From positions 1-53,529 of the forward strand of contig JAIXSO010000064.1 of assembly GCA_027484685.1 (NCBI GenBank): 53,529 nt of DNA, written 5' to 3'. Position numbers and translations under genes: made by a program. Each line of letters starts with the position of its first letter. Positions within the stretch are counted from its first letter, which is position 1. The notes under the pieces were generated by a model. The model saw only the letters and a program-made list of their open reading frames with translations, searched no databases and had not been told where the DNA came from. Below, piece after piece: positions 1,567 to 9,380 of this stretch. Origin of the DNA: Bacteroidota bacterium (GTDB lineage: Bacteria > Bacteroidota > Bacteroidia > UKL13-3).

Positions 1567-2943
1567 CTATTTACTTAATACAATTTTTTGTACAAACGTA
1601 CCTTGATCGGTAACTCCATTTATAAAATAAACACCTTGGTTTAAATGGCTAATATCAATTGGTAGGTTACTTGTATTTAAATTATTTAACTCTAACACCT
1701 TTTTTCCATTTAAGTTAGTAACGGTTAAATTAGTAATAGGCTCATTGCTTTGAATATTAACCAAACCTTGGCTAGGATTTGGAAATACATCAACTTGAGT
1801 TTTAGCGGTATTATTTAACTCGTTTACACCTACTTTTAGTGCTACTAAATCTTTGTGTAAGTTAAATACTATTCGGGTTAATATGGTATTGTTATCAATA
1901 CTATCTTGGTTGGTTAAAACCGAAATACTTACTTTGGTAATTGGGTCAAAAATGTTTTCGTTAATACCTCCAATATTGGTTCCTCCATGTCCGTAAACAG
2001 TGCGTCCATTAAAGTTATTGTATGAAAATATACCCAATCCATAACCTGCTCCGCTTCCAATACTTCTGGTAGTTTTTAATTTAACCAACATACTATCTGA
2101 AATTATTTTATTGGTATTAAACAATCCATTTAAATATTGCACATTATCATCAGCTGTGGCATATAATCCGCCCGCTGCCCAAGCTACGCTGTTCATAGCA
2201 TCGTAACTTAAACCCAATTGTTCCCAATCGGTTAACCTAGGAAAACCAATACCTACGCTCCAATGATGGGCTACTTCGGCACTTGTTGTTTCTTCGCTTA
2301 AAAGCTTGGTATTGGTTATGTTTAAAGGTGTATAAATATAGGTTTGATAAGCATTGGCTAACGACTTACCTGTAACTTGTTTTATAATTAATCCTGCCAA
2401 TAAAAAATTAGAGTTTGAATATTCCCAGCTAGTGCCAGGAGCAAAAGTAGGTGCCGGAATATATGGCACAATTTCTTCTGGAGTCCATTTTTTGGTTAAA
2501 TCAGCATTTACAAGTTCCCAAAACGCAGCATTTTCAGTATAACTGGCCACACCACTGGTATGATTCAATAACTGAATAATGGTTATTTTTCCATTTATGT
2601 TTGGATTATTGGTGAACCATTTGCCTATGGTATCGCTTAAGCTTAATAACTTTAACTCATGCAATTTTAAAACTACTGAACTGGTATAAGTTTTGGTATT
2701 GCTGCCAAGTGTAAAAAGCATTTCGTTTGTAGCAGGCACACCCTCATGCGATACGCCATAACTGCGTTTCCAAACGCCCATATTAGGTATTAACACTGCC
2801 GCAGCCGAACCTTTAATATTTAATTTAGTACATAAACTATCGTAAGTTCTATCGAGTTTATTAGCAATGTTAGCAGGCACTTGTGCCCGTAAAGTATTGG
2901 CACCTAAAAGACAAAGAAAACTTAAAGAGTATATTTTTTTCAT
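1567..2943 (-). CDS. Secreted serine hydrolase (beta-lactamase-related, S12) with T9SS sorting domain
   Basis: A 458-residue exported serine hydrolase of the penicillin-binding/class C beta-lactamase fold. I chose the ATG at 2943 because it begins a clean signal peptide (MKKIYSLSFLCLLGANTLRA, cleaved before Q21); the frame stays open for another 32 codons upstream without signal-like features. Catalytic motifs are SNTK at 81-84 (SxxK), YSN at 175-177 (YxN) and HGG at 319-321 (in place of KTG). Residues about 384-458 (VDVFPNPSQG through FVQKIVLSK) form a type A T9SS C-terminal sorting domain, so the protein should cross the outer membrane by T9SS and stay on the surface or be released. Members act as D-aminopeptidases, esterases or beta-lactamases; the substrate is not predictable here. 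Confidence 0.9.
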   Translation of the reverse strand: MKKIYSLSFLCLLGANTLRAQVPANIANKLDRTYDSLCTKLNIKGSAAAVLIPNMGVWKRSYGVSHEGVPATNEMLFTLGSNTKTYTSSVVLKLHELKLLSLSDTIGKWFTNNPNINGKITIIQLLNHTSGVASYTENAAFWELVNADLTKKWTPEEIVPYIPAPTFAPGTSWEYSNSNFLLAGLIIKQVTGKSLANAYQTYIYTPLNITNTKLLSEETTSAEVAHHWSVGIGFPRLTDWEQLGLSYDAMNSVAWAAGGLYATADDNVQYLNGLFNTNKIISDSMLVKLKTTRSIGSGAGYGLGIFSYNNFNGRTVYGHGGTNIGGINENIFDPITKVSISVLTNQDSIDNNTILTRIVFNLHKDLVALKVGVNELNNTAKTQVDVFPNPSQGLVNIQSNEPITNLTVTNLNGKKVLELNNLNTSNLPIDISHLNQGVYFINGVTDQGTFVQKIVLSK

Positions 2944-3029
2944 AAAATTAAATTGTTTTTTTTTACAAATAATGGATTTTAAATAATTACACCCAAACCA
3001 TTTATTTGAACGGCTTATTAAGCTATTTT

Positions 3030-3533
3030 CTAATAACACATTTGCTCAATTAACAGAGATAAATGCGGATATTGATTTGTTAAACTTTCTTTATTTGCCA
3101 ATTCAAAATCTGCAAAATCAAAACCGGGTGATACGGTACAGCCCACTAAACTAAAGCCATTGGGTACTTCGCAACGCGAGCCAAACCAATTACCTGCTTT
3201 TATTACACATTGAAAGGTTTCGCCATTTTCTATATCGGCTCCTAGTTTATGAGTAATTAAGTTTCCGTCAGGTTCAATTTCGTATACAGTTAGGGTTTGT
3301 CCGTAATAAAAATGCCACATTTCATCGCTGGCTATTTTATGAAAAGCCGAAAACTGCCCATGTTCTAATAAAAAATAAATTCCTGTACTTATATTTCTAT
3401 TTCCTTTAAAATCATTGGGTAAATTTTGCTTATTTATTTCAAAATTGGAACGATACGTTTCTTTAAACGAACCACCTTCTACATGTTTGGTTAAACCCAA
3501 TTTATTAATAAAGTAATCGGCTGTGTATTTCAT
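3030..3533 (-). CDS. Cupin superfamily protein, DUF985 type
   Basis: A 167-residue single-domain beta-barrel protein of the DUF985 (cupin_5) family. Characteristic stretches are KHVEGGSFKETYRS near the N-terminus, STGIYFLLEHGQFSAFHKI, SDEMWHFYYG and the C-terminal VSPGFDFADFELA. Family members have a metal-binding cupin pocket; a sugar- or nucleotide-sugar-related role has been proposed, but the activity is generally undefined. It ends 86 nt upstream of the serine hydrolase start and follows the flippase gene by 16 nt, so it may be the last gene transcribed with the polysaccharide operon or simply adjacent. Confidence 0.85.
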   Translation of the reverse strand: MKYTADYFINKLGLTKHVEGGSFKETYRSNFEINKQNLPNDFKGNRNISTGIYFLLEHGQFSAFHKIASDEMWHFYYGQTLTVYEIEPDGNLITHKLGADIENGETFQCVIKAGNWFGSRCEVPNGFSLVGCTVSPGFDFADFELANKESLTNQYPHLSLLIEQMCY

Positions 3534-3549
3534 TGTTTTATACTTAAAT

Positions 3550-4908
3550 TTAAATAGTTATAGAAATAACAAAAGCTGCAAGCATTAAGAAACTAAATAC
3601 AAAATATTCTACCACAGGCGTATATTCTTTGAACCTAATTCCTTCTATTTTACAGTAAATTACCAATTGAATTTTTTCAACTAAAAACGAAATGGCAGTG
3701 GCATAAGCAATGCCCGAAATGCCAAATAATTGAATAAACCAAATAGCTAAAATTACATTTACAATTAATACATTGGTAGAAACCAAATAAAATGCGCGTG
3801 TTTTTATTAAACCTGTAAGCACAGTTTGAGGGAAAATTAATCGGCTAATGATGAGTAATAATGAAATATTGAAAATTTTATATCCTTCTACCAAATCATT
3901 ATTATACAAAGCGATATACATTGGTTTACTAACAAAAAGTAAAATAATGGCCAATGGAAATAACCAATACATGAGTTTACGGCTACTATTTTTTAGCTTT
4001 TTTAACCCTTGGTTTAAAAGCCCTTGTTTGTTTAAATTGGCAATTTCGCCACTGTAAATATTACTCAACGAATTGGCCATAATTAAAAATATTGGAAGCT
4101 CTTTTGCACCATATCTAAACACAGCAAAATCGGCTTCGGTAAAATAATGAACCACTATAAAACTGTTTATATAATCCATACTTCCAGCTAAAAGTATAGA
4201 AAACATAAATGGCATTACCTTAATCATAAACTCTTGAATAAGCCTGGTGTTAATGGTAATGGTAGAGTATTTCATTAATAAAATAATGGTATAATTAAAC
4301 TTAAGCAAAGCCAAAATTACCAATAAATTTACCGCTAGATTTAAGGTTTGCCTAAAAAACAAAGGCAAACAAAGCATTAAAGTATGGGCTGTAAAAGTTA
4401 CTATACCCCAAATAATAAGTGACCGATATTTACCTTTTAGAAAAAAAATGTAATCAACTATAAATGTTGGTGTATTTAAAAAAACTACCAACGAAAACAT
4501 GTGAAAGAGGTACGTATCCTCCTTTTTATAAAATCCAAAGCAAAACGTAACAATACCTGCTAATAAAGAAAATGCCACCATTAAAGCAAAAGCATTGAAT
4601 AAAATTCGCCTCTGCTTATCTTCATTGCTTGCATTAAAAAAAGGAACCAACGTATTGCAAATACTCGATACCCAAAAAAATGTTAAACTAGAGCTTACCA
4701 CCATTAAGAATTCATAACGACTAATGATGCTTGTACCGTAACCAGGATTAAAGCGATAAAAAGCAATTTTTGCCAACACTATAGAAATTAAAAAGAAACT
4801 TCCATAACGCAAAAACTGATAAATCTGCAGCGAGTTATATTTAGTTAACTTAAGTTTTTCCTTACTTATCAATGTCGTGTTCGGGCAATATATTGCCATC
4901 TTTATCAA
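3550..4908 (-). CDS. Wzx-like polysaccharide flippase (MOP/MATE superfamily)
   Basis: A 452-residue integral membrane protein with about 12 hydrophobic segments, including internal charged loops and the paired-helix layout of polysaccharide flippases. It should move lipid-linked sugar repeat units from the cytoplasmic to the periplasmic leaflet of the inner membrane. The start overlaps the end of the Wzy-like gene by 47 nt in a different frame; a later start would reduce the overlap, but the first membrane segment begins only near residue 30, so the ATG is not critical. Last member of the four-gene polysaccharide operon. The call rests on topology and context more than on specific motifs. Confidence 0.8.
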   Translation of the reverse strand: MIKMAIYCPNTTLISKEKLKLTKYNSLQIYQFLRYGSFFLISIVLAKIAFYRFNPGYGTSIISRYEFLMVVSSSLTFFWVSSICNTLVPFFNASNEDKQRRILFNAFALMVAFSLLAGIVTFCFGFYKKEDTYLFHMFSLVVFLNTPTFIVDYIFFLKGKYRSLIIWGIVTFTAHTLMLCLPLFFRQTLNLAVNLLVILALLKFNYTIILLMKYSTITINTRLIQEFMIKVMPFMFSILLAGSMDYINSFIVVHYFTEADFAVFRYGAKELPIFLIMANSLSNIYSGEIANLNKQGLLNQGLKKLKNSSRKLMYWLFPLAIILLFVSKPMYIALYNNDLVEGYKIFNISLLLIISRLIFPQTVLTGLIKTRAFYLVSTNVLIVNVILAIWFIQLFGISGIAYATAISFLVEKIQLVIYCKIEGIRFKEYTPVVEYFVFSFLMLAAFVISITI

Positions 4909-6325
4909 CCCAATTTCTGCATATAAAGAAATAAACCATGCTCATATACATTACTACAGCCGTTGGGTTTTGTCCTAAAATTTGATTTCCATAGCTGGCA
5001 AACATAATACCAAAAAAACCCGCAGCCAAGGCTATCATTTGTGTTCGCAAATGAGGGTCTTTAATTTTGGTTATGTTATACATTCCAACCCCCAAACATA
5101 TAAATAAATGCAATAAATGCAAAGTTAAACCTACCACACCCATTTCTACCCAAATGCGAACATACCAACTATCTAATTGAACAGTGCTAAGCCAACGGCC
5201 TTTATAAAACCTATCGCCCCAACTTCCACCTGTACCAATTCCTGCTCCAATTGGCCTTGAAGCCAAATATGCTTTTAAGTTTTTTTGGTTTTCTAATCGC
5301 ACTAAAAGCGAGGGATCGTTAGGGTCTAATCCTGACCGCATACGCTGAATTTGATAATTACTACTGCCCACGGAGGTAAACTTGAGCAGCCCAAAAAACA
5401 TGCCTCCTATTAAACCGCCTATAACCAATATTTTTATATTACCAATCATTAAAAGGTAAATAAATAAACCACCAATAATTACAAACAATGGACCACGACT
5501 GCCTGAAAGGGCATAACCCCAAAATACCACCGCAAATGCAATCCAATAACCAATTTTTTGTTTCCTTGTGTTAATGGGCGAAAGCGCCAAAATAATACAA
5601 AACACCGCCATGTGAGCCATACCTGCTCCAAACTGACCAGCATCGGAATAAAACGACCAAATCCGCATTCTACCTTGAATACAATGCGTTACCTTACCAC
5701 CATCGTCTAACCATTTTTGTTCAAACGAATCTACTCCAATATAATGTTGTTTATAAGCATAAATGGATGCCACAATGGACCAACCAATGACTAATTTTAA
5801 CAAAAAGGTTAAATCCTTTCTATCGGGCATTAGTATAAGCATAAGTGGAATTTGCAAAACAGGATATAAACCTATGCCACGCATGGCGTAAAACCAAGCT
5901 TCTTTACTAGTAGCTTCTGGATTAAATAGTTCGAACATAATCCACATCATCCAAGCAAACGAAAGCCAAAATGCAGGATTATTAATACGCGCGGCTTGCT
6001 CTTTTTTAACAGTAAAAATGCACGCAATTACTGTAATGATAAAAACAGCATCTACCACCAAACCATAAGGAACTGAAGGTGGCAAATACCTACTTAAGCC
6101 ATTTACCAAAAAACTGTAATGAAAAACTGTTATAACCCCAATACGTGGATTTTTAAAAATGTAAACCAAATAAGCTACCACTAAAGGCAAACCAATCATG
6201 GCACCAGCTATGCCAATGCCTAATTTGGCTACAAAAACACCTAATGTAACCGCTATTGCAGCAACCCCAAATGAATGCAGCAATTCATTTAATTGCAAAC
6301 CTTTCTTTTGTTGTGCAAACGACAT
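4862..6325 (-). CDS. O-antigen ligase/polymerase family membrane protein (Wzy/WaaL-like)
   Basis: 487 residues with about ten to twelve transmembrane helices. The central part (YALSGSRGPLFVIIGGLFIY) and the long periplasmic loop with RxxxxxxxP..PIGAGIGTGGSW and a following SWYVRIWVEMGVVGL helix match the O-antigen ligase/polymerase superfamily (PF04932-like). Such proteins either polymerise undecaprenyl-linked repeat units or transfer glycans to an acceptor, in the periplasmic face of the inner membrane. It starts 2 nt after the co-polymerase gene ends, indicating tight co-expression with a chain-length regulator, which favours a polymerase (Wzy) role over a ligase role. Confidence 0.85.
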   Translation of the reverse strand: MSFAQQKKGLQLNELLHSFGVAAIAVTLGVFVAKLGIGIAGAMIGLPLVVAYLVYIFKNPRIGVITVFHYSFLVNGLSRYLPPSVPYGLVVDAVFIITVIACIFTVKKEQAARINNPAFWLSFAWMMWIMFELFNPEATSKEAWFYAMRGIGLYPVLQIPLMLILMPDRKDLTFLLKLVIGWSIVASIYAYKQHYIGVDSFEQKWLDDGGKVTHCIQGRMRIWSFYSDAGQFGAGMAHMAVFCIILALSPINTRKQKIGYWIAFAVVFWGYALSGSRGPLFVIIGGLFIYLLMIGNIKILVIGGLIGGMFFGLLKFTSVGSSNYQIQRMRSGLDPNDPSLLVRLENQKNLKAYLASRPIGAGIGTGGSWGDRFYKGRWLSTVQLDSWYVRIWVEMGVVGLTLHLLHLFICLGVGMYNITKIKDPHLRTQMIALAAGFFGIMFASYGNQILGQNPTAVVMYMSMVYFFICRNWVDKDGNILPEHDIDK

Positions 6326-6327
6326 AT

Positions 6328-8541
6328 TTAGTATTTTTGGCCCCCAAAAATAAGCTTCATTTTTTTACGCAACTTTGAGCGTTGCTTAGGAATTTCGCCA
6401 TAAATACTTTCTAACAAATCAGGCACTACTCTATTTAGCAATACCTTAACTTGATTTTGACGAACAGTTTCAAATTCTTTTAAAATACGTTTATCGCTAT
6501 TAGTCCAACTTTTATTTGCATGTACAATCAATATTGAAACATCTGACTGATCTAAAATTTGAATTGGAACTGGGTATTTATTTAAACTTGGTAATTCTAT
6601 AATTACAAAACTGTGTTTTCCTTCTTCCAAAGGCTTGTTATTATTGGCTTCAATTAAATCGGTAATGCTATCAGCATCCACTAATTTATCAATTACCTTA
6701 TACTCTTTTATTTGCAAATCGTGATGAGGTTTTGTACCCAATAAGGTTTCGCTTTTTGACGAAGTTTCTGGATATAACAAAATAACATCATTTTTAATTT
6801 GAGCTAATTTTGAAGAAATTAATTGTGAAAAATAACTTTTACCTTCACCGTTTTTGGTACTTAAAATGGTAATAACATGGCGTTCGGCATGAGGTTTATT
6901 ACGCTTCAATTCAATAAAAATAGAATTGATAACACGTTGAACCAAAGCCGCATTCATTTCTTCAATATTAATTACTTTACTTGACCCAATACTTAAATCG
7001 GGCAATGCACTTAATAAAGGTAAACCAATTTGATCCTCTACCCTTTCTGGCGTGCGCACAGAGTTATTCATTAACTCTCCAGCTATGTAATACGAAAGTA
7101 ATACCACAAAACCAGCTATAAAGGCAACTATAATAAGTAAACCACGTTTTGAAGGTAATGGCGTTAATGGAAAATAAGGAGTATCAACTGTTTTTAAGTT
7201 ATTACTCATTTCAATATTTTGCTGGCGCAATTTGGCTAAATTTAAACCATGTAAAATAGATAAATACTCTTTCTCGCTAATACCAATTTCGCGGTCTAAC
7301 TGACTCATGGTAGAACCCATAGGTGCAAATTGTGCATAAATTCCATCGTATTGTTTCAAGCGCGAATCGTAAACCATTAGCCTACCTCTACTTTCCTCTA
7401 ATTCAACTAATTTGGCCAACCACTCGTTAAGCAAAGCTTCTTGCGGAATCCATTCTATATTATTATTAAAGTTATAATAATCGCGGGCTTTATCTTTTAT
7501 TTTATCTTTTAAAACCTCCAACTGACTTTCCATATTGGCAACTTGGTCAGTATTCATTTTATAGGCTTTGGCATTGGCTATATTGATATTCAGTTGCGAA
7601 ATTTCTTGACGAATTTTCATCATTTCGTCATTGTTTTTCAAAACATCCGAATATTTCGACATTTTTTCTTCAATACGTGTAATGGCCGAATTAGCAGCCT
7701 CAAAACGCATTTTTTCTTTGTAATAATCGGTTAATAAATCCTCTTTACTTTCGGCCACAAACTTGGCCTGCTCGTAATAATTAATGATTTTATTATTGAT
7801 ACCAAAATCGCGCAACTTACCTTCAGAGTTTTGTAACGATCCAAACGAAAGTTTTAATTGTTCTTCAAAATATTTTACCACATTTTGAGTTTCAGAACCT
7901 TTTATTGACTTAAATCTAGCGCTAAAAGTTTGAATTAAAAAATTAAGCATATTAACTGCCACACCTGGGTCGGTAGTTTTTAAGCTCATTTCTATCATGT
8001 CAGAACTTGCTTTTCTGTTAGCTGTTAAAGCCGAAAGTATGTATTCAGGGTTGTAGTAAACATTTTTTACATTTAAAATACTGCGCACTGCATTTTTTGA
8101 AGTACTGTCTTTAATACTTCTAATACGTTTAAAGGTTCTTTCAAAACTTCCTGGCACTATCAATTTAGCCCTATCTTCTTCCGAAATTAATTCTTTCAGT
8201 GTATTAAAAGCCCTTTCGCCCAACACATCATCACTTGGTTGAGCCAAAAGTAAGTGCTGCGCCAAAAGCTTCATGCCCACTTCTTCTAGCGTTTCGCGGC
8301 TTTTTACGGTAATTAATAAGTTATCAAAAGCATTATTTACTTCAAATAAATCTATTTTGGTATCGTTATCATCGGTAATGCTATAGCCCGATGCTAAACC
8401 AGTATAAATGGTAGCATTGGTTTGGTATTCTCTTTCTTGATTGCGGGTAAGAAAAAATACGGTAACAGCCATTAACAATGGAAATAGCAATAACCACTTC
8501 CACTTTTGTGCAATTATTCTTAAAAATGAAATAATAGTCAT
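6328..8541 (-). CDS. Polysaccharide co-polymerase, Wzc/GumC-like, with degenerate BY-kinase-type P-loop domain
   Basis: 737 residues. A Wzz-type domain lies between transmembrane helices at about 14-31 and 463-485, with a long coiled-coil periplasmic region (about 200-400). The cytoplasmic C-terminal domain has a P-loop (STKNGEGKS, about 559-567) like CpsD/Wzc tyrosine kinases. However, the Walker A' aspartate motif (normally LLIDADxR) is NDVILLYPETSS, the Walker B-like strand is FVIIELPSL, and the C-terminus has only two tyrosines (YGEIP and the final Y) rather than a tyrosine cluster. So it probably controls chain length and export, but tyrosine autokinase activity is doubtful. Its start overlaps the TolC-like gene stop by one base (TAATG), suggesting translational coupling. 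Confidence 0.88.
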   Translation of the reverse strand: MTIISFLRIIAQKWKWLLLFPLLMAVTVFFLTRNQEREYQTNATIYTGLASGYSITDDNDTKIDLFEVNNAFDNLLITVKSRETLEEVGMKLLAQHLLLAQPSDDVLGERAFNTLKELISEEDRAKLIVPGSFERTFKRIRSIKDSTSKNAVRSILNVKNVYYNPEYILSALTANRKASSDMIEMSLKTTDPGVAVNMLNFLIQTFSARFKSIKGSETQNVVKYFEEQLKLSFGSLQNSEGKLRDFGINNKIINYYEQAKFVAESKEDLLTDYYKEKMRFEAANSAITRIEEKMSKYSDVLKNNDEMMKIRQEISQLNINIANAKAYKMNTDQVANMESQLEVLKDKIKDKARDYYNFNNNIEWIPQEALLNEWLAKLVELEESRGRLMVYDSRLKQYDGIYAQFAPMGSTMSQLDREIGISEKEYLSILHGLNLAKLRQQNIEMSNNLKTVDTPYFPLTPLPSKRGLLIIVAFIAGFVVLLSYYIAGELMNNSVRTPERVEDQIGLPLLSALPDLSIGSSKVINIEEMNAALVQRVINSIFIELKRNKPHAERHVITILSTKNGEGKSYFSQLISSKLAQIKNDVILLYPETSSKSETLLGTKPHHDLQIKEYKVIDKLVDADSITDLIEANNNKPLEEGKHSFVIIELPSLNKYPVPIQILDQSDVSILIVHANKSWTNSDKRILKEFETVRQNQVKVLLNRVVPDLLESIYGEIPKQRSKLRKKMKLIFGGQKY

Positions 8542-9380
8542 TATGGTTTCTTAACCTCTCTTTTTTTAAAATTTATTAACGGAACTGTTAATGTTGTTTC
8601 TAATCTGTAATACGATGATAAAAAATCGCGTTTGGCTTGCTCATAACCAATTTCGGCCACTGCCATAATATTGCGCAACCTACTTAATTCAGAAGGTTGA
8701 GTTTTACCTCTGCGCATTTCAATAAAAGCTAACTCGGCTGTAATACGACTTGTTTCCAAATCTTGACTTTTTACCATGAGTAGTTTTTGGTTTGAAATCA
8801 AAGCAAAATAATCGTCAATGATTAAACGTTTGTAAATTCTACGAGCTTCATCTTGCTTGTATTTAGCCATATCGGCTTCCGACCTAAGTGACTTTAACCT
8901 AGCCGAACGGCCCATTAAATCGCCTAAAGGCAATACCACATTGATACCAAAACGATAACCTGCTGCCAAATTTTGTGTAGCCACATCATTAACCTGATTA
9001 CTTGCAATGATATTGGTTATTTGATTTCCATAACCCCAATTGTAAAATAATTGAACTGAGTTTAACCAAATCCATTTGATATAATCACGGTTGTATTTAA
9101 ATTTCATGGTTTCGGCCACTGCCATTTTTAAATTAGCCGAATTTTCTGTTGCATAGTAAAGTATTGAATCTAATGGAATTAATTGCTCTTCAATATCTTT
9201 ATTTATATCAAACATCAATGTATCAATACTTTTTAGGTCAATAGTAGCAGCAGGATTAGCCATTCTTGATTTTAAGCTATCGCTTCTTTCATAACCCACT
9301 TGAGCATAACCAGCTATACCACTAAATAATAGCAGTATAAACGCACCAAAATTTACCAGGAATTTGAAATTTATAGTCAT
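8541..9380 (-). CDS. TolC-like outer-membrane protein of the polysaccharide operon (short form)
   Basis: 279 residues with a signal peptide ending GYA-Q. The mature part resembles outer-membrane efflux proteins (TolC family): long amphipathic helices (about 80-105 and 170-265), and a strand segment (YRFGINVVLPLGDLMG) similar to the TolC beta-barrel strands. Typical TolC proteins have two such repeats and 400-480 residues; only about one repeat is present here. First gene of the polysaccharide operon, coupled to the co-polymerase gene. It may act as the outer-membrane exit for the glycan in place of a Wza-type (OPX) protein. Family assignment is from pattern, not a computed alignment. Confidence 0.75.
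   Translation of the reverse strand: MTINFKFLVNFGAFILLLFSGIAGYAQVGYERSDSLKSRMANPAATIDLKSIDTLMFDINKDIEEQLIPLDSILYYATENSANLKMAVAETMKFKYNRDYIKWIWLNSVQLFYNWGYGNQITNIIASNQVNDVATQNLAAGYRFGINVVLPLGDLMGRSARLKSLRSEADMAKYKQDEARRIYKRLIIDDYFALISNQKLLMVKSQDLETSRITAELAFIEMRRGKTQPSELSRLRNIMAVAEIGYEQAKRDFLSSYYRLETTLTVPLINFKKREVKKP

Follow-up and report, generated by a model that had tools for sequence, protein, structure and literature searches.

The window analysed here is a 53,529-nt stretch that constitutes contig C21 of a 4.5-Mb, 72-contig Bacteroidota genome (G000). It carries a compact minus-strand operon encoding a 279-aa TolC-like protein with a single TolC repeat (hereafter half-TolC), a polysaccharide co-polymerase (PCP) of Wzc fold, a Wzy-type polymerase and a Wzx-type flippase. 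The half-TolC/PCP pair is conserved together with Wzy, and mostly also with Wzx and glycosyltransferases, across the window's GTDB phylum and on a named Rhodothermota plasmid. We consider it probable that these genes provide the export step of a Wzx/Wzy-dependent polysaccharide pathway working without a protein of the OPX family (Poly_export, PF02563), the polymer exiting through a homo-oligomeric ring of half-TolC. The operon consists of the following features:

8541-9380, minus strand: half-TolC gene, 279 aa (single OEP repeat in Pfam, AlphaFold2 model, Foldseek, conserved beside the PCP gene)
8539-8543, minus strand: TAATG stop-start overlap of the half-TolC and PCP genes (read directly)
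6328-8541, minus strand: PCP gene, Wzc fold, 737 aa (AlphaFold2, Foldseek, alignment, motif counts)
4862-6325, minus strand: Wzy-type polymerase / O-antigen ligase family gene, 487 aa (Wzy_C in Pfam; related genes in the same place in relatives)
3550-4908, minus strand: Wzx-type flippase gene, 452 aa as an open reading frame (ORF), start uncertain (resemblance, with a weak MurJ match below cut-off, and synteny)

The ORFs and the sequence confirmed the close packing of four minus-strand genes described in the initial annotation: the TAA stop of half-TolC shares one base with the PCP ATG (...CCATAATGACT), and the PCP gene is separated from the wzy start by 2 nt. As listed, the flippase frame begins at TTG and shares 47 nt with wzy; translation probably starts further downstream, since the protein measures 440-442 aa in some relatives. 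Pfam recognised the polymerase marginally (Wzy_C, 32.2 bits against a cut-off of 31.7) and matched the flippase only to MurJ (13.2 bits, under the cut-off of 27.4). Of the window's 52 ORFs of at least 100 aa, 36 were scanned with Pfam, and neither a glycosyltransferase nor an OPX protein turned up among them; of the Wzx/Wzy pathway set, the window copy has no glycosyltransferases and no initiating transferase among these 36.

Half-TolC and the co-polymerase

Half-TolC matched the OEP domain (PF02321) at 54.1 bits against a cut-off of 22, in one stretch covering residues 70-263; it thus passes the family cut-off and has the repeat fold, but with one repeat per chain instead of two. In the AlphaFold2 model (mean pLDDT 76, below 50 in the inter-strand loop), a hydrophobic, signal-peptide-like N-terminal helix and a linker are followed by a helix (82-107), two strands (109-116 and 141-148), a long helix (152-223) and a further helix (229-264), with the tip at approximately residues 205-240. 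As modelled, this succession of helix, two strands, long helix and helix corresponds to one half of a TolC protomer. Foldseek searches with the model returned CmeC, OprM and TolC on top (probability 1.00, E 9e-5 to 1e-3, TM-score ∼0.5; CmeC at E 9e-5), in agreement with the TolC kinship for which the initial annotation had proposed fold prediction as a check. A sequence search of the PDB gave no match at E ≤5.

The single repeat is a genuine property of the protein. The window's genome contains 14 ORFs with OEP matches (grouped from 25 match rows), 12 of them with open frames of at least 420 aa; the only two short ones, on contigs C21 and C15, each lie beside a PCP of the window's family. One-repeat half-TolCs of 222-318 aa occur in 20 phylum relatives. 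With 36 distinct half-TolCs, the window's included, found beside a window-family PCP, the 279-aa protein is not the product of a truncated gene; the fragment or pseudogene interpretation was rejected given that the two-repeat TolC genes of the same genome are long and that all 36 distinct proteins have one repeat or are shorter.

The PCP falls under the Pfam cut-offs for Wzz and GNVR, and its model matches Wzc structures (Foldseek 9r62, E 4e-17, and 7nhr, E 1e-14; probability 1.00). Long helices predicted by AlphaFold2 for the periplasmic part span residues 219-294 and 368-448, the longest reaching 81 residues. The cytoplasmic domain resembles a bacterial tyrosine kinase (BY-kinase) and keeps the P-loop, without the Walker B Asp (Glu in alignment A1) and without the tyrosine tail. 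Among 58 window-family PCPs, 55 had a GK[ST] P-loop, two a Walker B pattern and none at least three Tyr in the last 30 residues, compared with 15, 15 and 13, respectively, of 15 ordinary PCPs. Judged by its model, the PCP is a protein of Wzc fold but lacks the motifs of an active BY-kinase and the tyrosine tail. A strict Walker A' pattern was discarded as a measure after failing on ordinary PCPs (1/15). A loosened version, found in 15/15 ordinary and 29/58 window-family PCPs, was not used as evidence; part of this motif may persist in the window's family.

Distribution of the pair and position of OPX genes

A paralogous cluster on contig C15 encodes a half-TolC of 245 aa, a PCP 40% identical to that of the window, a flippase (Polysacc_synt, 72.6 bits in Pfam), a polymerase, four glycosyltransferases and a divergent fifth. 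The common order in loci of the C15 type is half-TolC, PCP, Wzx, Wzy and glycosyltransferases; those of the C21 type run half-TolC, PCP, Wzy and mostly then Wzx. Half-TolC was directly upstream of the PCP in every family locus whose upstream stretch was covered, that is, excluding L075 and L100, which are cut inside the PCP. Several of the family loci (L056-L101) represent one contig twice (e.g., L057/L072), and distinct proteins were hence counted. Repeat-unit synthesis, which the initial annotation had placed elsewhere, is indeed missing from the window locus; its precursors probably come from another locus, such as the glycosyltransferase-bearing C15 cluster.

In the phylum sample, a PCP alignment of 15 rows found matches in 24 of the 395 genomes, G000 included, and the 24 loci of the other 23 were read. 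All 24 carried half-TolC, directly upstream of the PCP in 22; in L142 the gene lies on the opposite strand at a distance of 1.5 kb, and in G138 the distance is 13 kb. The half-TolC of L150 was identified by a Pfam OEP match of 57.9 bits, and that of L151 by 69% identity to it. A sugar-transferase match of at least 180 bits was present in 18 of the 24 loci, a weaker one in L152 and none in five. A broader 16-row alignment matched 59 of 395 class genomes, a sample that overlaps that of the phylum; from it we read all 20 new strong loci (≥418 bits) and 20 of the 22 weak ones (≤273 bits), leaving out G307 and G499:C59, and found half-TolC in 34 of the 40 (19 strong, 15 weak). Seven named plasmid records match over most of the PCP, and six of them (Aureispira, Hymenobacter, Salinibacter ruber, Parabacteroides distasonis, Bacteroides finegoldii and Phocaeicola massiliensis) have half-TolC within 1.5 kb; the Flammeovirgaceae plasmid shows only a weak half-TolC match ∼5 kb away. 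The PCP is annotated as "hypothetical protein" in five of the six annotated named records and as "AAA family ATPase" in the Flammeovirgaceae record, and half-TolC, where annotated, as "TolC family protein."

OPX matches in the window's genome are confined to contigs C10 and C13, where each gene is trailed by an ORF, one of 355 aa interpreted as Wzz-like and one of 835 aa as Wzc-like. Across 58 genomes, this one included, an OPX gene was located within 3 kb of none of 25 half-TolC matches vs. 65 of 82 ordinary-PCP (Wzc) matches. The 25 rows include two from the window's genome and one weak partial match (G018 C13); the 82 extend down to E 3.5e-29, with weaker rows dropped. The initial annotation had allowed for an OPX gene conserved beside the operon in relatives; no such neighbor emerged, the one near case being that of Phocaeicola described below. 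An OPX profile was trained on 14 proteins from control loci plus the two of the window's genome. Among the family and phylum loci, its matches were limited to L070 and L071, both of them training loci, and it found nothing even at E 10 among the 40 class-sample loci; it did recover the Phocaeicola OPX, which was absent from its training set. The 15 control loci (L165-L179) were picked for having both genes and so provide no test of adjacency; L174 yielded neither in the ORF table.

Three genomes of one family, G545, G673, and G570 (96, 92, and 96% complete), contain the cluster and gave no PF02563 match. Their half-TolCs score 70, 63, and 54 bits against Pfam OEP, respectively, and their loci comprise a response regulator, a sugar transferase, half-TolC, a long PCP and a flippase, with Wzy and glycosyltransferases also present in L199; the L196 and L200 loci extend beyond the ends of their contigs. 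An OPX gene could escape notice through incompleteness in one genome, less easily in three.

Candidate exit route and competing explanations

In the route we propose, the flippase would pass lipid-linked repeat units, Wzy would polymerize them at the PCP, and the chain would leave through the half-TolC ring, whose helical tip would dock on the periplasmic helices of the PCP. We infer that half-TolC may serve as the outer-membrane channel. TolC itself forms 12 strands from three two-repeat chains. Since one repeat supplies two strands per chain in the model, six half-TolC chains would be needed for a 12-strand barrel, and the trimer suggested in the initial annotation is unlikely. The ring could also be larger, e.g., eight copies if matched to an eight-fold PCP: Wza-Wzc is eight-fold (PMC12881504), and eight half-TolC chains would give 16 strands.

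Several observations weigh against exit through a half-TolC ring. VIA-align scored unrelated long-helix proteins as high as TolC, giving no separation, and the A2 profile failed to pick up two phylum-sample proteins, the half-TolC of G141 (L150) and a likely counterpart in G062 (L151). In one of the 20 strong and five of the 20 weak class loci, half-TolC is missing from the stretch read; L198, L209, L211, L212, L215, and L220 had neither half-TolC nor OPX in the six frames of the stretch examined. OPX genes are also widespread, occurring somewhere in 57 of 58 relatives and in all 23 phylum genomes with the cluster, with a match in 37 of 40 class-sample genomes. Apart from the three genomes named above, all cluster-carrying genomes checked have at least one, and its use in trans is therefore possible there. 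The nearest case among the 23 phylum genomes is an OPX gene 15 kb from the PCP in G398, the remaining ones being over 100 kb from the PCP or placed on a different contig; because some loci are near contig ends, an OPX gene beyond them could be missed. In Phocaeicola massiliensis, an 859-aa OPX with five SLBB stretches is encoded on the other strand only 2 kb from half-TolC, divergent from the cluster (L162:8424-12114 for this OPX and the ORF behind it). These distributions would suit an accessory half-TolC and a polymer that exits through an OPX encoded elsewhere in the genome, which we nevertheless judge improbable in view of the three cluster genomes that gave no PF02563 match and of the frequency with which OPX genes have their own PCP (the 65 of 82 ordinary PCP matches above). 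Even the Phocaeicola OPX is directly trailed by a 369-aa ORF placed like the 355-aa Wzz-like ORF behind the large OPX of the window's genome, a likeness of position only.

A further difficulty for the channel comes from four close relatives, in which half-TolC has 177 aa and no beta-hairpin:

L093:2491-3024, L094:312-845, L095:8269-8802 and L097:9434-9967: hairpin-less half-TolC genes, in-frame loss

Window residues 96-165, which take in some of the first helix, the two strands and the beginning of the long helix, are gone in frame from these proteins, which retain the N-terminus and the tip and still score 26-28 bits against Pfam OEP. Their dN/dS of 0.10-0.15 indicates purifying selection (0.03-0.05 for three full-length pairs; L093 and L097 are 99% identical). 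With the hairpin lost and dN/dS nonetheless constrained, the conserved role in this lineage is evidently not that of a pore. A tip kept beside the PCP under selection, and forming the most conserved segment of half-TolC in general (0.72 vs. 0.57-0.60 for the other structured parts), is what one would expect of an adaptor, periplasmic or tethered to the outer membrane, whose helical tip regulates or braces the PCP and which forms no pore. We regard this explanation, too, as unlikely: it requires another outer-membrane exit, and the hairpin is kept in the 32 other sequences of the half-TolC alignment, where its conservation (0.58) is similar to that of the helices. Moreover, the barrel-less loci (half-TolC, PCP, Wzy, one glycosyltransferase and a metallo-hydrolase, L094 ending at Wzy) contain no wzx in any of the four and a single glycosyltransferase in the three that reach past wzy. 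A search of the four short-frame genomes (G001, G002, G007, and G008; G002 is 88% and G007 65% complete) with the C15 flippase gave no match, although a divergent one could be missed. Reduced function fits this lineage, since no wzx or flippase relative and only one glycosyltransferase were seen. From the sequences, we read it as either a reduced system or a possible second, structural role of the tip, which keeps the adaptor explanation alive. A purely fortuitous neighborhood, in which half-TolC would belong to some efflux or type I secretion machinery with no link to the operon, is very improbable: TolC-family proteins do serve many systems, but the two genes stay paired in many families, within the window's class and beyond it, and synteny contradicts it.

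The placing of the TolC-like protein in the position of OPX, as the initial annotation had it, is strengthened by phylum-wide conservation, by the near absence of adjacent OPX genes and by three genomes without an OPX match; the barrel-less orthologues do not fit the putative channel role. Returning to the OPX-free export route, we incline slightly towards regarding it as a further class of polysaccharide translocon, in which a ring of identical half-TolC subunits could take whatever copy number suits the PCP ring's symmetry (six, or eight to give a 16-stranded barrel) and the PCP would have abandoned tyrosine phosphorylation. Such a class would be used across Bacteroidota, including gut Parabacteroides and Bacteroides, would have been overlooked as surveys start from the OPX domain, and would have shrunk to the docking tip in one lineage.

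Known systems and other features of the loci

The outer-membrane factors TolC, OprM, and CusC (PF02321), whose usual partner is a membrane fusion protein, share domain and fold with half-TolC; they have two repeats per chain, whereas half-TolC has one and its neighbor is the PCP. Compared with the Wza-Wzc capsule export of E. coli (PMC12881504), the window cluster has the same Wzx/Wzy logic and a Wzc-fold PCP, but no OPX, a one-repeat TolC as exit candidate, and a kinase domain without the Walker B Asp and tyrosine tail. The composite OPX/beta-barrel translocons of Myxococcus (EpsY/EpsX and WzaX/WzpX; PMC9601211 and PMC9603273) likewise combine a PCP with long periplasmic helices and exit by a separate outer-membrane beta-barrel; these systems keep an OPX and an 18-stranded barrel, in contrast to the window cluster with no OPX and a TolC-type hairpin. 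A pseudokinase partner, EcpK, has been proposed for the Myxococcus system, and the BY pseudokinase idea put forward for EcpK and for HfsB of Caulobacter (PMC12004946) resembles the window PCP, where the degenerate kinase is fused to the PCP.

Three outer-membrane polysaccharide routes appear in a 2022 count (PMC9601211): Wza-like OPX, synthase-linked barrels and composite OPX/barrel. The genome survey of Schwabe et al. searched by PF02563; a cluster without OPX is invisible to the survey in PMC9601211, because that survey starts from the OPX domain. The word TolC is absent from the main texts of two OPX surveys. In no paper among the full-text matches listed is a Wzx/Wzy pathway said to release its polymer through a TolC-type protein; the coverage leaves out most of the subscription literature and most preprints, so the absence is unproven. 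The component families are all known and the combination looks new. A half-length TolC-type protein beside the PCP, where the usual exporter would be expected, suggests that a route by which sugar polymers exit the cell has been overlooked. Should half-TolC be that exit, one channel family serves both polysaccharide secretion and TolC-type efflux, surface glycan export in Bacteroidota partly needs re-annotation, and the half-size subunits offer a natural test of ring-symmetry matching between two membranes.

Some loci show additional genes. Upstream of half-TolC, L130:6780-8395, L150:12610-14288, and L199:11505-13066 encode a response regulator of one domain and, after it, a fusion of a response regulator with a sugar transferase, an arrangement that recalls the EpsW-EpsZ control of Myxococcus (PMC12802240). 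The PCP of L199 (L199:7986-10787, 933 aa), from a genome without an OPX match, has two LysM stretches, which may anchor it to peptidoglycan; PCPs of 914-924 aa occur in L194, L196, and L200, the LysM result referring to that of L199. On the Bacteroides finegoldii plasmid, a gene annotated as a BamA/TamA family outer membrane protein (L163:12874-14061) lies directly upstream of half-TolC.

NCBIfam gave no match above its cut-offs, the tRNA scan found none, and promoter (20 sites vs. 33.7 in shuffles) and terminator (6 vs. 5.5) predictions did not go beyond chance. A Cupin_5 (DUF985) gene at 3030-3533 directly follows the flippase gene and is kept beside the operon in L057, L059, and L072-L075. 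Positions 1567-3039 encode a protein of beta-lactamase fold that bears a type IX secretion tail (Por_Secre_tail).

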